A stretch of 64,000 nucleotides of DNA from Verrucomicrobiota bacterium (GTDB lineage Bacteria > Verrucomicrobiota > Verrucomicrobiia > Verrucomicrobiales > Akkermansiaceae). The position numbers and the translations under genes are program-made. Below are positions 27,074 to 31,240 of the stretch, piece after piece (the stretch's first letter is position 1; each line of letters starts with the position of its first letter). The stretch covers positions 1 through 64,000 of the forward strand of contig RDZR01000031.1 of the NCBI GenBank assembly GCA_004294095.1, given 5' to 3'. The notes under the pieces are model-generated. The model was not told the DNA's origin, searched no databases, and saw only the letters and a list, made by a program, of their open reading frames with translations.

Positions 27074-27103
27074 TTGACGAATGCCGATTCATCAGCATGA
27101 TAC
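27074..27103 (+). promoter_or_regulatory. Candidate promoter for the 27158 lipoprotein gene
   Basis: TTGACG at 27074-27079 and TGATAC at 27098-27103 are separated by 18 bases and resemble sigma-70 -35 and -10 boxes, 55 bases upstream of the lipoprotein ATG. The -35 overlaps a perfect inverted repeat GCATTC-N5-GAATGC, which could be an operator. The call is by inspection only. Confidence 0.4.
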
Positions 27104-27157: not shown

Positions 27158-27607
27158 ATGAATCCTCGCATTCTTCTTTTCCCCATCCTATTGATCATTG
27201 CGTCATTGGCCTCTTGCTATCCTTATCCGGAGACTCCTCGCAAGAAGGAATCTTCCAAGCCGCAAGAATCCGTGAGTGGTGAAGAGCAGCAAAAAATCAA
27301 AGAACAGCGCGATAAACTGAAAAAGGAAGCTGCTGAGAAAAAACGCATCGCTCAGGAAAATGCGCCAAATGATCAAGAGGACGCGACGCAGCCTTCAGAG
27401 CGAAAGACAGAACCTGATTCCACCACAAAACCATCTCCTGCTCCTCGTCGTGAATATCCTGTGGCGATTCCGATTCCCGGAAAAGATGGATTCGTTTTTA
27501 GCCCTTATAACAACAAGCCTATCGACGTTCGCGGCATCGCCAAAGGCACTCTCGTGCAAGACCCGACTTACCCTGCTGCAGAAAAGAAAAACTTCCGCGT
27601 GCCATAA
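27158..27607 (+). CDS. Small charged lipoprotein
   Basis: The 149-residue product begins MNPRILLFPILLIIASLASC, a lipoprotein signal peptide with LASC lipobox. It is followed by a long Glu/Lys/Gln/Pro-rich segment (roughly residues 25-95) that is probably helical and then disordered. The C-terminal 45 residues are better ordered and carry DGFVFSPYNNKPIDVRGIAK and GTLVQDPTYPAAEKKNFRVP, a pattern I associate with small verrucomicrobial lipoproteins whose function is unknown. Start 27158 is chosen over 27119 because the signal peptide begins there. It is monocistronic, with a candidate promoter upstream and a strong terminator downstream. Confidence 0.8.
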   Translation: MNPRILLFPILLIIASLASCYPYPETPRKKESSKPQESVSGEEQQKIKEQRDKLKKEAAEKKRIAQENAPNDQEDATQPSERKTEPDSTTKPSPAPRREYPVAIPIPGKDGFVFSPYNNKPIDVRGIAKGTLVQDPTYPAAEKKNFRVP

Positions 27608-27631
27608 TTTCCCGAGTGGTTTTTGCCGCTC

Positions 27632-27664
27632 ATGAATTTCTTCTCAAATCATACAACCCATTAA
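27632..27664 (+). promoter_or_regulatory. Possible leader peptide ORF ahead of tyrA (MNFFSNHTTH)
   Basis: A ten-codon ORF with two adjacent Phe codons (ATG AAT TTC TTC) ends ten bases before a terminator hairpin that abuts tyrA. A Phe-rich leader would fit attenuation of an aromatic amino-acid operon, but there is no clear Shine-Dalgarno sequence and no obvious alternative antiterminator stem. The match may be accidental. Confidence 0.25.
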
Positions 27665-27673
27665 ATTTTCTAA

Positions 27674-27706
27674 CCGGGTCCGGCACTCACTGGACCTGGT
27701 TTTTTT
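27674..27706 (+). terminator. Intrinsic terminator/attenuator touching the tyrA start
   Basis: CCGGGTCC (27674-27681) and GGACCTGG (27692-27699) form an eight-pair stem with one G-U pair and a ten-base loop, followed at once by seven T residues (27700-27706). This is a textbook rho-independent terminator. The T-run ends exactly at the ATG of tyrA. It may simply end the lipoprotein transcript, or act as an attenuator for tyrA-aroA-cmk-plsC. Confidence 0.8.
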
Positions 27707-28573
27707 ATGACACCTCACTTTTCCAATATTGCCATTCTCGGAGGCGGCCTCTTAGGTGGCTCTCTCGGACTTGCACTTGCGGAGCGATTGCCGCCGCAGA
27801 AGCATCGATTGTGGATGCGAAAAAGTGCTTCTTACGATGAGGCATGCGCGCTTGGAATGGCGGATTTCGCGACGTTGGATCTAACAAAAGCAGTTGTAAA
27901 TGCCGATATGTTAGTGCTCGCGGTGCCAGTTGGTGCGATGCCAGATTTGGTGCTGGCCGCGATTCAAGCAGGCCTGCCAGACACTTGCCTCATCACGGAC
28001 GTCGGCAGTGTAAAGGCCACGCCGCATCGCACCATTGCTCCGCTGTTAGAAGGGCGAGGGAATCGCTTCATCGGCAGTCATCCGATGGCTGGCTCGGAGC
28101 GCAATGGCCTCGCCGCTGCATCGAGTCGATTGTTCGATCATGCGGCTTGTTTGCTCACCCGAGATGCATCCACTGTGCCATCTCAGGCCGCCGCACTCGA
28201 AGCATTTTGGCAAACGCTTGGCTGCCGCACCACGTGGATGGATCCGGCCGAGCACGATCGATTGGTCGCCCGCATCAGCCACATGCCGCATCTTCTTGCG
28301 GCAAGTGCCGCCCGCATTTGCCTCAGTGAGCCGAGCGACGGCCGCTTCGGCGGCGGCGGGCTGCGTGATACCACCCGAGTGGCCGCTGGAAATCCCTCAA
28401 TGTGGGCGGAAATTGTGATGGAAAATCGCCAGGCACTCATTCCAATGCTCGAAGAATCCATCGCCGACTTGCGCGAAATCCTTGCCAGCCTCGAAAATGC
28501 CGAGCATGAAAATGTTCAGCGCTGGTTGGCCGAGGCAAAACAACAACGCGATCCATTAAATTCTATCTGTTAG
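27707..28573 (+). CDS. tyrA: Prephenate dehydrogenase
   Basis: The 288-residue protein has a Rossmann N-terminus (IAILGGGLLGGSLGLALAER), the catalytic-domain segments CLITDVGSVKATPHRTI, RFIGSHPMAGSERNGLAAAS and VARISHMPHLLAASAA, in which the two histidines are conserved. It converts prephenate to 4-hydroxyphenylpyruvate for tyrosine synthesis. No chorismate mutase or ACT domain is fused. It is first in a tyrA-aroA-cmk-plsC operon. The ATG at 27707 directly follows the terminator T-run and has no visible Shine-Dalgarno; no alternative start precedes the Rossmann motif. Confidence 0.94.
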   Translation: MTPHFSNIAILGGGLLGGSLGLALAERLPPQKHRLWMRKSASYDEACALGMADFATLDLTKAVVNADMLVLAVPVGAMPDLVLAAIQAGLPDTCLITDVGSVKATPHRTIAPLLEGRGNRFIGSHPMAGSERNGLAAASSRLFDHAACLLTRDASTVPSQAAALEAFWQTLGCRTTWMDPAEHDRLVARISHMPHLLAASAARICLSEPSDGRFGGGGLRDTTRVAAGNPSMWAEIVMENRQALIPMLEESIADLREILASLENAEHENVQRWLAEAKQQRDPLNSIC

Positions 28574-28581
28574 TATATTCC

Positions 28582-29934
28582 ATGTCCTATTTACGTGTTG
28601 CGCCCATTTCTTCTCTCACTGCGGAATTTTCCGTTCCGGGCGATAAAAGCATGTCTCACCGCGCAGCAATCCTCGGTGGGTTATCCAATGGAATTTGCAC
28701 GATTGATAATTTTCTACCGAGTGAAGATTGCGTCAATACGCTGCACGCGATGCGGCTGTTAGGAGTAAAACATGAAGTGTTAGAAGAACGCCCGGAATTT
28801 GGCCCAACTCGCCTGCGCATCCATGGCAAATCTATGGCACTTTCCACGCCGGATGCGCCGATTGATTGCGGGAATTCGGGCACCGGCATGCGTCTGTTAG
28901 CCGGATTGTTAGCTGGGCAGGAGTTTTCCTCAGAATTGTTTGGCGATGCCTCACTTTCCTCTCGCCCGATGGGCCGCGTGATCGATCCGCTTTCTCTGAT
29001 GGGAGCGAAAATCATCGGTGCGGGCATCCGTCCTGGATGTGCGCCACTGCAAATTTCCCCAGCAAAGCTAACGCCGATCCAGTATCAAATGCCGATGGCC
29101 AGCGCGCAGGTGAAAAGTGCGATTCTGTTAGCCGGTCTTTTTGCTTCGGGCAAAACGTCCGTCACCCAACCGGCCGAGACTCGCGATCATACCGAGCGGA
29201 TGATGGCAGCCTTTCGCGTCACCACGCGGCGTGAGGGCCAGGAAATTTCCATCTACGGTGGGCAAGTTCCAGAAGCCTGTGACTTCCGGGTGCCGGGCGA
29301 TATTTCCAGCGCCGCATTTTGGTTAGTCGCTGCTGCAGCGATGCCGGGATCTCGCTTGCGCATCCAAGACGTGGGACTCAATCCCACCCGCACGGCCATT
29401 CTCAAAGTGCTCAGCAGAATGGGCGCGAGGATGTTAGAAATCGTTGATCGCTCTGATGGCGAACCGATCGGCCACATCGAAATTCATGGCACTTCACTGC
29501 GCGGCACGACGATTTTGTTAGAAGAAGTGCCCAATTTGATTGATGAAATTCCGGTCATCGCCGTCGCCGCGGCTCTTGCGCAAGGCCGCACGGTGATTCG
29601 CAATGCCAAAGAGCTGCGTGTGAAAGAAACCGATCGCATCACGACCGTTGTCAATGGTCTGCGGGCGATGGGCGCGGAGGTTGAAGAATTTGAGGACGGC
29701 ATGGAAATCGAAGGTGGCAAGCCACTCAAAGCGGCCACCATCGATAGCTGCGGAGATCATCGAATTGCCATGGCATTTGCCATCGCTGGCTTATTTGCCA
29801 AGGGCGAAACCACCATCCGTCATACCGATTGCATTAACACTTCCTATCCCGGATTCTCTCATCATCTTCAAGCTGTGATCCGACAGCAAACGGCACCGTC
29901 CGCTTATCATTTGCCGACGATTGTTCGCGCCTAA
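28582..29934 (+). CDS. aroA: 3-phosphoshikimate 1-carboxyvinyltransferase (EPSP synthase)
   Basis: The 450-residue enzyme has VPGDKSMSHRAAILGGLSNG, GNSGTGMRLLAGLLAGQEF, LSSRPMGRVIDPLSLMGA, AQVKSAILLAGLFASGKT and KELRVKETDRITTVVNGLRA, with the basic residues that bind shikimate-3-phosphate and PEP. GMRLLAG where class I enzymes have TAMRPL suggests a class II-type (glyphosate-tolerant-like) enzyme. It follows tyrA by eight bases. Together with tyrA it serves aromatic amino-acid synthesis. Confidence 0.97.
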   Translation: MSYLRVAPISSLTAEFSVPGDKSMSHRAAILGGLSNGICTIDNFLPSEDCVNTLHAMRLLGVKHEVLEERPEFGPTRLRIHGKSMALSTPDAPIDCGNSGTGMRLLAGLLAGQEFSSELFGDASLSSRPMGRVIDPLSLMGAKIIGAGIRPGCAPLQISPAKLTPIQYQMPMASAQVKSAILLAGLFASGKTSVTQPAETRDHTERMMAAFRVTTRREGQEISIYGGQVPEACDFRVPGDISSAAFWLVAAAAMPGSRLRIQDVGLNPTRTAILKVLSRMGARMLEIVDRSDGEPIGHIEIHGTSLRGTTILLEEVPNLIDEIPVIAVAAALAQGRTVIRNAKELRVKETDRITTVVNGLRAMGAEVEEFEDGMEIEGGKPLKAATIDSCGDHRIAMAFAIAGLFAKGETTIRHTDCINTSYPGFSHHLQAVIRQQTAPSAYHLPTIVRA

Positions 29935-29945
29935 CACTTTTTGCC

Positions 29946-30611
29946 ATGCCCGCTCACTACGCCATCGCCATTGACGGGCCAGCCGCCTCAGGAAAGTCCA
30001 CGCTTGCTCGCAATTTGGCAGATCGCCTTGGCTTGGTGATGGTCAATTCCGGCGCGATGTATCGAGCCATCACATGGCAGGCGCTGCGCTTGGGCATCGA
30101 GCCATCGGATCACCCAGCGGTCGTCGCCATGCTCGATGGGCTTGAAATTATTTGTGGAGAAAACGGAATTGAATCGACGATTTTGATCAACGGCATCGAT
30201 CCATCGCCGGAGCTACGCCATGAATCGATCAACGCGCATGTTTCTGAAATTTCTGCAATCCCACAAGTGCGCGAGCGCCTCGTCGCCCTCCAGCGTGGAT
30301 ATTTGGAGCATACCAATGTGATCATGGAGGGCCGCGATATCGGCACGGTGGTTTTTCCGGATACCCCGTATAAAATTTTCGTAATCGCGGATCAGTCCGT
30401 GCGCACCCATCGGCGAGTTGAGGCAGGGGAAGCGGATTCGGTGCTTGCCCGCGATGTGGCAGATTCCAGCCGAGCCACCTCGCCCTTGCGGCAGGCGGAA
30501 GATGCCGTCTTGCTCGATACTTCGCATCACGATATCGAAACCGCTGTGCAAGCTGCGCTCGTCATTTTGCGCGGCCAAGGCCTTGAGTTCGATTGCTCCC
30601 TTCTCACATGA
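29946..30611 (+). CDS. cmk: Cytidylate kinase
   Basis: The 221-residue protein opens AIAIDGPAASGKSTLARNLA (Walker A), has VNSGAMYRAITWQALRLG, NVIMEGRDIGTVVFPDTPYK and DSSRATSPLRQAEDAVLLDT, matching Cmk. It phosphorylates CMP and dCMP. The aroA-cmk order is common in bacteria; here rpsA, often the next gene, is replaced by plsC, which overlaps the stop by the ATGA arrangement. Confidence 0.97.
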   Translation: MPAHYAIAIDGPAASGKSTLARNLADRLGLVMVNSGAMYRAITWQALRLGIEPSDHPAVVAMLDGLEIICGENGIESTILINGIDPSPELRHESINAHVSEISAIPQVRERLVALQRGYLEHTNVIMEGRDIGTVVFPDTPYKIFVIADQSVRTHRRVEAGEADSVLARDVADSSRATSPLRQAEDAVLLDTSHHDIETAVQAALVILRGQGLEFDCSLLT

Positions 30612-31240
30612 ATCTACCTCCCACAGAACGACCGATGCGTTGGATTTACTGGCTCGGATGGATGGCCTTTGGCTCAGCTTTCCGCACTTTATTCGGTATG
30701 AAAATTGTCGGCGCGGAGCGCTTGATTAGTCATGGCCCGGTGCTGGTTGCATCCAATCATCAAAGTTATCTCGACCCGCCATTGATCGGAAATCTCTATC
30801 AGACAGAAATGGTCTATCTTGCTCGCAAGACGCTCTTCAAAGGATTTTTCAAATGGCTCTATAGCCAGTGGAATGCGATTCCTGTGGATCAAGATCGCCC
30901 GGACATGACCAGCCTGAAAACAATCATCCGCAAGCTCAAAGAAGGTAATCGGGTGCTGATTTTTCCCGAAGGTGAGCGCACTCTAACAGGCGAAATTGGT
31001 TCGTCTGCGGCAGGTATCGGACTGGTTGCCGTGAAAGCTGGAGTGCCGATCCAGCCGGTGCGCATCTCGGGCGCATTTGAAGCATTGCCGCGCGGTTCAT
31101 CGCGAGTGAGATTTTCTCAAATTACCGTCACAGTGGGCGAACCTATCATTCTAACAGATCGAGATCTCGCCGGCCGCGATGCCAAGGAGACGTATGAGCA
31201 AGTGAGCTTGCGGATCATGGATGCCATCCGTGCGTTGTGA
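30608..31240 (+). CDS. plsC: 1-acyl-sn-glycerol-3-phosphate acyltransferase
   Basis: The roughly 210-residue protein carries LVASNHQSYLDPPLIGNL (catalytic HX4D), LFKGFFKWLYSQWNAIPVD and RVLIFPEGERTLTGEIGS (substrate-binding motif III), with a hydrophobic N-terminal segment. It acylates lysophosphatidic acid in phospholipid synthesis. ATG 30608 overlaps the cmk stop and is preferred over 30593. Placement of plsC after cmk is known in other bacteria. Confidence 0.95.
   Translation: MNLPPTERPMRWIYWLGWMAFGSAFRTLFGMKIVGAERLISHGPVLVASNHQSYLDPPLIGNLYQTEMVYLARKTLFKGFFKWLYSQWNAIPVDQDRPDMTSLKTIIRKLKEGNRVLIFPEGERTLTGEIGSSAAGIGLVAVKAGVPIQPVRISGAFEALPRGSSRVRFSQITVTVGEPIILTDRDLAGRDAKETYEQVSLRIMDAIRAL

Follow-up and report, generated by a model that had tools for sequence, protein, structure and literature searches.

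A hairpin lies between a small lipoprotein gene and tyrA

We analyzed 64,000 nucleotides (contig RDZR01000031.1) of the genome of a Verrucomicrobiota bacterium of the family Akkermansiaceae, and refer to this whole stretch of DNA as the window. A predicted promoter on the + strand (TTGACG-16 nt-CATGAT, 27074-27101, 9 of 12 matches) stands 57 nt upstream of the ATG of a small lipoprotein gene (27158-27607, + strand, 149 codons), whose product has the lipobox LASC and the YFRVP-like C-terminus NFRVP. No family was assigned to this lipoprotein in Pfam or NCBIfam. The C-terminal sequence GFVFSPYNNK.VDVR.I.SGTLVQDPTYP..KK.FRVP is kept across Verrucomicrobiales, where the gene lies directly 5′ of tyrA. 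Past the stop codon of the lipoprotein gene, and again on the + strand, are the tetranucleotide CCCG (27611-27614, 3 nt from the stop), a possible remnant of the CCCGGT box described below, and a ten-codon ORF, MNFFSNHTTH (27632-27664), which we judged to be a chance ORF; the minimum-energy fold contains a weaker hairpin, GAGTGGTTTTTGCCGCTC (27614-27631), between the lipoprotein stop and this ORF. Next come a terminator stem-loop (27672-27701, + strand) and its T-run (27700-27706), which reaches the start codon of tyrA. The genes for prephenate dehydrogenase (tyrA, 27707-28573), EPSP synthase (aroA, 28582-29934), cytidylate kinase (cmk, 29946-30611) and a plsC-type acyltransferase (30593-31240) follow on the same strand, and thyA and a dihydrofolate reductase gene are located upstream of the lipoprotein gene on the opposite strand. 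aroA was found 3′ of tyrA in 85 of the 96 relatives examined.

Read from the sequence, the hairpin has a 12-bp stem, AACCGGGTCCGG / CTGGACCTGGTT, in which the 5′ arm (27672-27683) pairs with the 3′ arm (27690-27701) around a 6-nt loop (27684-27689). Seven T residues extend from 27700 to 27706, two of them inside the stem, and the ATG of tyrA begins at 27707. The preliminary description of this DNA had claimed a strong stem-loop with seven T residues touching the tyrA ATG, and both our reading of the sequence and the predicted fold agree with it: the hairpin region folds with -31.7 kcal/mol, compared with -16.75 +/- 3.11 kcal/mol for shuffled sequences (z -4.8). The hairpin at 27672-27701 is confirmed as a real element, beyond chance. 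It is the best-paired among the terminator-like sites listed between 25000 and 34000, a region without an excess of such sites (11 versus 11.7 expected). A G+C-rich stem-loop immediately followed by a T-run, the hallmark of an intrinsic terminator, is present at 27672-27706, and we infer that the hairpin terminates transcription in vivo. It would also form the 3′ end of the lipoprotein transcript, in keeping with the earlier suggestion that it is the terminator of that gene. A search of Rfam returned no match at gathering thresholds in the whole window and none up to E = 5 around the site, and a known RNA family was rejected on these grounds.

The hairpin is conserved in relatives

We compared the region upstream of tyrA in relatives, among them Luteolibacter pohnpeiensis and other Akkermansiaceae. 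The gene was identified in 56 of the 59 genomes of a first set and in 68 of the 73 genomes of a genus set, to which 80 loci from named genomes were added; 132 sequences remained after removal of identical upstream stretches. The end of the lipoprotein gene, mostly FRVP-stop, was within 160 nt of tyrA in 116 of them. The other 16, with no lipoprotein end recognized within 160 nt of tyrA, were omitted from the gap analysis; some are contig ends, and others (L181, L182), on visual inspection, have a lipoprotein-like end immediately upstream of tyrA.

A strong stem was present in 88 of 107 gaps of at least 40 nt (106 distinct gaps, as genome G010 was counted twice), these being sequences related by descent and not independent events. 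It ended 5-24 nt (median 11) before tyrA, a range bounded by the design of the search, which was confined to the last 24 nt before the start codon. In nine further relatives (L017, L038, L039, L042, L051, L053, L056, L172, L177) the gap is 6-23 nt long and has no hairpin, so that tyrA is either co-transcribed with the lipoprotein gene there or has a promoter inside it. Roseibacillus-type genomes carry a different conserved sequence, AGGCCTTGTCAGA, in the lipoprotein-tyrA gap (L152, L153, L154, L156, L163, L164, L165, L170), and a third conserved terminator, GCCGGATTTCC...GGAATCCGGC, occupies the same gap in L159, L166, L167, L168, L171, L173, L178, L180 and L183.

An alignment of 32 genus sequences was used to analyze covariation in the stem. 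In these, 97.5% of the stem cells are paired, both sides have changed in 3 of 10 stem pairs, and 0 of 500 shuffles matched the stem in cells paired or in covariation score. Hence, the pairing of the hairpin is preserved by compensatory change in relatives. A conserved inverted repeat next to a biosynthetic gene could also be a DNA operator for a repressor of tyrA instead of an RNA hairpin, but we consider this very unlikely: the repeat is followed by a T-run, it has no adjoining promoter, and its stem contains a G-T pair in the window and in GGATCC-type sequences (for example L018, L023, L027, L028).

The letters of the stem are also well kept. Mean identity of the 5′ arm was 0.81 among 59 tyrA loci versus 0.61 among 20 mdh terminators and 0.59 among 7 pckA terminators, the controls coming from the best 30 orthologs of each gene, of 67 genomes with a match for each. 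The mdh proteins are about 87% identical and the tyrA proteins mostly 53-68%, yet the tyrA stem is the better kept. As the stem of the mdh terminators (L221-L250) is also partly kept across the genus (AATCCC.G...), this contrast is one of degree. Some terminators thus drift slowly in the genus, as those of mdh show.

On the forward strand, a covariance model of the hairpin matched 15 places in the genus (in 14 genomes, that of the window among them), all of them 5′ of tyrA and one per genome. The loci matched by the model are L281-L294 and L298, the latter being the match on the reverse strand at the position of L281. In other genera the model matched three places, which stand beside other genes, in loci that do not contain tyrA. 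With this model and the strict filters of Infernal, which weak copies may escape, we found no regulon of the element elsewhere.

Transcription of tyrA probably starts upstream of the lipoprotein gene

We searched the relatives with a strict promoter pattern of the sigma-70 type (TTGACn-N15-18-nAnnnT). Of 103 relatives, 70 have the pattern 5′ of the lipoprotein gene (2.2 expected) and 1 has it in the 140 nt 5′ of tyrA (1.7 expected), and it occurs 5′ of aroA in 0 of 85 (1.4 expected); no promoter of this sigma-70 pattern was found between the terminator and the next gene. TAnnnT was seen at -27 to -5 of the tyrA start in 6 of 106 gaps versus 26 expected, and the bases at -12 to -7 of tyrA in the window are CCTGGT. 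The preliminary description had allowed for transcription of tyrA from an unseen promoter or as a leaderless mRNA; the counts for both motifs speak against this for a promoter of the sigma-70 type, and a leaderless sigma-70 promoter at tyrA was discarded as unsupported. Since the one visible promoter lies 5′ of the lipoprotein gene, the RNA of tyrA should come from read-through, and judging from the sequence tyrA-aroA-cmk-plsC are probably transcribed by polymerases that pass the hairpin.

We also compared the position of the hairpin with that of other terminators of the same genome, in a sample of 378 kb made up of the window and 20 further stretches (L201-L220), about an eighth of the genome, with genes called by a simple ORF rule. 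Our terminator detector reported 21 strong terminator-like sites in this sample, and only the tyrA site directly adjoins the beginning of a long ORF. Where the other sites have a long ORF downstream on the same strand, it is at least 40 nt away; the nearer ORFs begin with TTG and span 79-115 aa, apart from one 91-aa ATG frame inside one of these. Clear terminators in the sample mostly begin 16-49 nt past a stop codon, and the tyrA hairpin starts 64 nt past the lipoprotein stop and leaves 5 nt before tyrA. We rejected the idea that the CCGGGTCC hairpin serves the genus as a general terminator, because its pattern is found once in the genome of the window.

Both sets of data bear on another explanation, by which the hairpin would simply terminate the lipoprotein gene at its 3′ end and tyrA would have its own promoter near or inside the hairpin, one outside the sigma-70 pattern that gives a leaderless or nearly leaderless mRNA. 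We regard this as unlikely. The hairpin does stand where a lipoprotein terminator would, and a leaderless start would not be odd in a genome in which Shine-Dalgarno-like sites are scarce (26 of 245 genes by a loose motif, window and L201-L220), but the shortage of TAnnnT and of the promoter pattern near tyrA, the bases CCTGGT in the window and the distances of 64 and 5 nt, where other terminators keep 16-49 nt from the stop and at least 40 nt to the next gene, all argue against it. With Shine-Dalgarno-like motifs so rare, their absence at tyrA is uninformative. C is in excess at -1 and -2 before ATG in the window and L201-L220.

The ten-codon ORF looks like a chance ORF

The ORF at 27632-27664 reads ATG AAT TTC TTC TCA AAT CAT ACA ACC CAT TAA, and its stop lies 7 nt before the stem, so the earlier observation that a ten-codon ORF with two consecutive Phe codons precedes the stem was accurate. 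When the 66-nt spacer was shuffled, an ATG ORF of at least 5 codons arose in 13.6% of the shuffles; 2.5% gave one in which two aromatic residues are neighbors. Among the 106 distinct lipoprotein-tyrA gaps of at least 40 nt, 12 contain a closed ATG ORF of at least 5 codons, Phe-Phe adjoining a start is confined to the gap of the window, and no Tyr- or Phe-rich ORF recurs. The ORF MGVRLFFS of L173, a distant relative, has FF, but it overlaps the hairpin. The stretch from the Phe codons to the stem offers no partner for the 5′ arm (its best match is 5 bp, p 0.17), and the probability that the 5′ arm pairs upstream is 0.543 in the window versus 0.543 in shuffles. Since the 5′ arm has no partner there, the terminator would still be able to fold when a ribosome stalls.

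Classical ribosome-mediated attenuation, in which MNFFSNHTTH would sense Phe-tRNA, is suggested by the two Phe codons, the terminator and the biosynthetic operon standing side by side, and we now give it hardly any credence. The ORF belongs to this genome only, the antiterminator segment is absent, and the ORF has no Tyr codon although tyrA makes a precursor of Tyr; with no antiterminator, stalling at Phe codons would promote termination, the opposite of what a biosynthetic gene requires. We therefore rejected leader-peptide attenuation in the species of the window, and the ORF looks like a chance ORF with no part in control. The preliminary description had proposed an attenuator of the aromatic operon with a Phe leader peptide and had named conservation in relatives as a check. 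An attenuator-like terminator that the operon has to pass is supported by the comparison, with the hairpin in 88 of 107 gaps and its compensatory changes; the Phe peptide, found in the window only, is not. As a caution, short aromatic ORFs next to terminators can arise by chance.

A CCCGGT box is a candidate antiterminator in part of the genus

In about a third of the genus-level relatives, a CCCGGT box is located 9-15 nt past the lipoprotein stop (24 of the 72 rows in the tree have CCCGG[TC] at a fixed position). The box is identical in sequence to the 3′ arm, CCCGGT, and complements the 5′ arm, ACCGGG. When the nascent RNA was truncated upstream of the 3′ arm, the mean probability of the 5′ arm being paired upstream was 0.935 in 25 sequences with the box versus 0.657 in their shuffles, and 0.658 versus 0.611 in 22 sequences without it. 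At most 10% of the shuffles scored as high in 15 of the 25 box sequences compared with 1 of the 22 others. Covariation in the helix between box and arm was no higher than in shuffles, with a both-side change in L015 only. The box is absent from L088-L090, which are closely related to the window, and from a clade of 15 sequences in the genus. We conjecture that the box may act as a peptide-free antiterminator in the relatives that carry it, as part of the mechanism at most. The window has CCCG alone, at another distance (3 nt past the stop) and with no measurable antiterminator pairing; going by this sequence, its species has lost or nearly lost the box, and we do not claim a box mechanism there.

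One could imagine the lipoprotein gene itself as the leader of a peptide-free attenuator in much of the genus, with the terminating ribosome covering the CCCGGT box, a reading that we find decidedly improbable. If release at the conserved ...RVP-stop were slow, the box would stay hidden and the terminator could form; if it were fast, the box would become available for pairing with ACCGGG, so that tyrA-aroA would be made. In this reading, the species of the window would keep the terminator alone. If it were true, synthesis of the lipoprotein, or a metabolite that slows release, would set the flow into the Tyr/shikimate genes.

Discussion

The comparative data point to a conserved intra-operon terminator or attenuator within a lipoprotein-tyrA-aroA-cmk-plsC transcription unit, an explanation that we consider likely, though well short of certain. 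Transcription would start at the conserved promoter 5′ of the lipoprotein gene, the hairpin would end most transcripts past that gene, and polymerases reading through would make tyrA and the later genes. In relatives with the box, CCCGGT could pair with ACCGGG, the 5′ arm, while the 3′ arm (CCCGGT) has yet to be transcribed. Because aroA and cmk tend to be essential genes, full termination cannot be the normal state. The site of the hairpin would set, and perhaps regulate, the flow into the Tyr/shikimate genes; that read-through is regulated is our conjecture. Several observations count against this explanation: no strong stem was found in the last 24 nt of 19 of the 107 gaps, the T-run is poor after some stems (L096, L098), the box is missing from the species of the window and from the 15-sequence clade, and the box-arm helix does not covary.

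Our confidence in the intra-operon terminator includes the case in which the terminator is unregulated and leaks constitutively, so that it only sets the proportion between lipoprotein and tyrA-operon transcripts; taken by itself, this is a tenable but somewhat doubtful version. Many species keep the terminator with no pairing between box and arm, and neither a regulator nor a ligand is indicated, with no match in Rfam. A mere terminator, however, does not need stem letters far better conserved than those of the control terminators, and the pairing of the 5′ arm upstream above the level of shuffles in box sequences also speaks against this version.

If the intra-operon terminator is right, essential shikimate/Tyr genes in Akkermansiaceae (Verrucomicrobiota), a large bacterial group that has been little studied, rely on read-through past a conserved terminator that follows a lipoprotein gene, and this would be an instance of control at the RNA level. 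In the open-licence PMC literature, we found no paper on a tyrA attenuator in Verrucomicrobiota. T-boxes and similar leaders are terminator/antiterminator leaders of amino-acid genes; the tyrA site differs from these and other Rfam leaders in having no Rfam match. In E. coli, aroF-tyrA is under TyrR, with tyrA behind aroF. The two systems are alike in the control of tyrA within an aromatic operon and differ in this gene order; a table in PMC2659441 refers to a possible attenuator 5′ of E. coli aroF.

Like attenuators of the trp, pheA and leu type, the hairpin is a terminator 5′ of a biosynthetic operon. Unlike them, the tyrA site has no conserved leader peptide with regulatory codons, has a full lipoprotein gene upstream, and has a candidate antiterminator that does not covary and is missing in the species of the window. 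For actinobacterial trp attenuators, complementary triples are described in PMC1262725, and the conserved complementary triple CCCGGT, ACCGGG, CCCGGT in part of the genus resembles them. The hairpin also resembles a second class of elements, as it probably lies between genes of one transcription unit. Intra-operon, or premature, terminators stand between the genes of one unit, and the downstream genes are made by read-through. The tyrA hairpin departs from them in touching the next start codon and in having stem letters kept genus-wide. The kind of element is known, and its place, the gene pair and its conservation are apparently new, at least to us.
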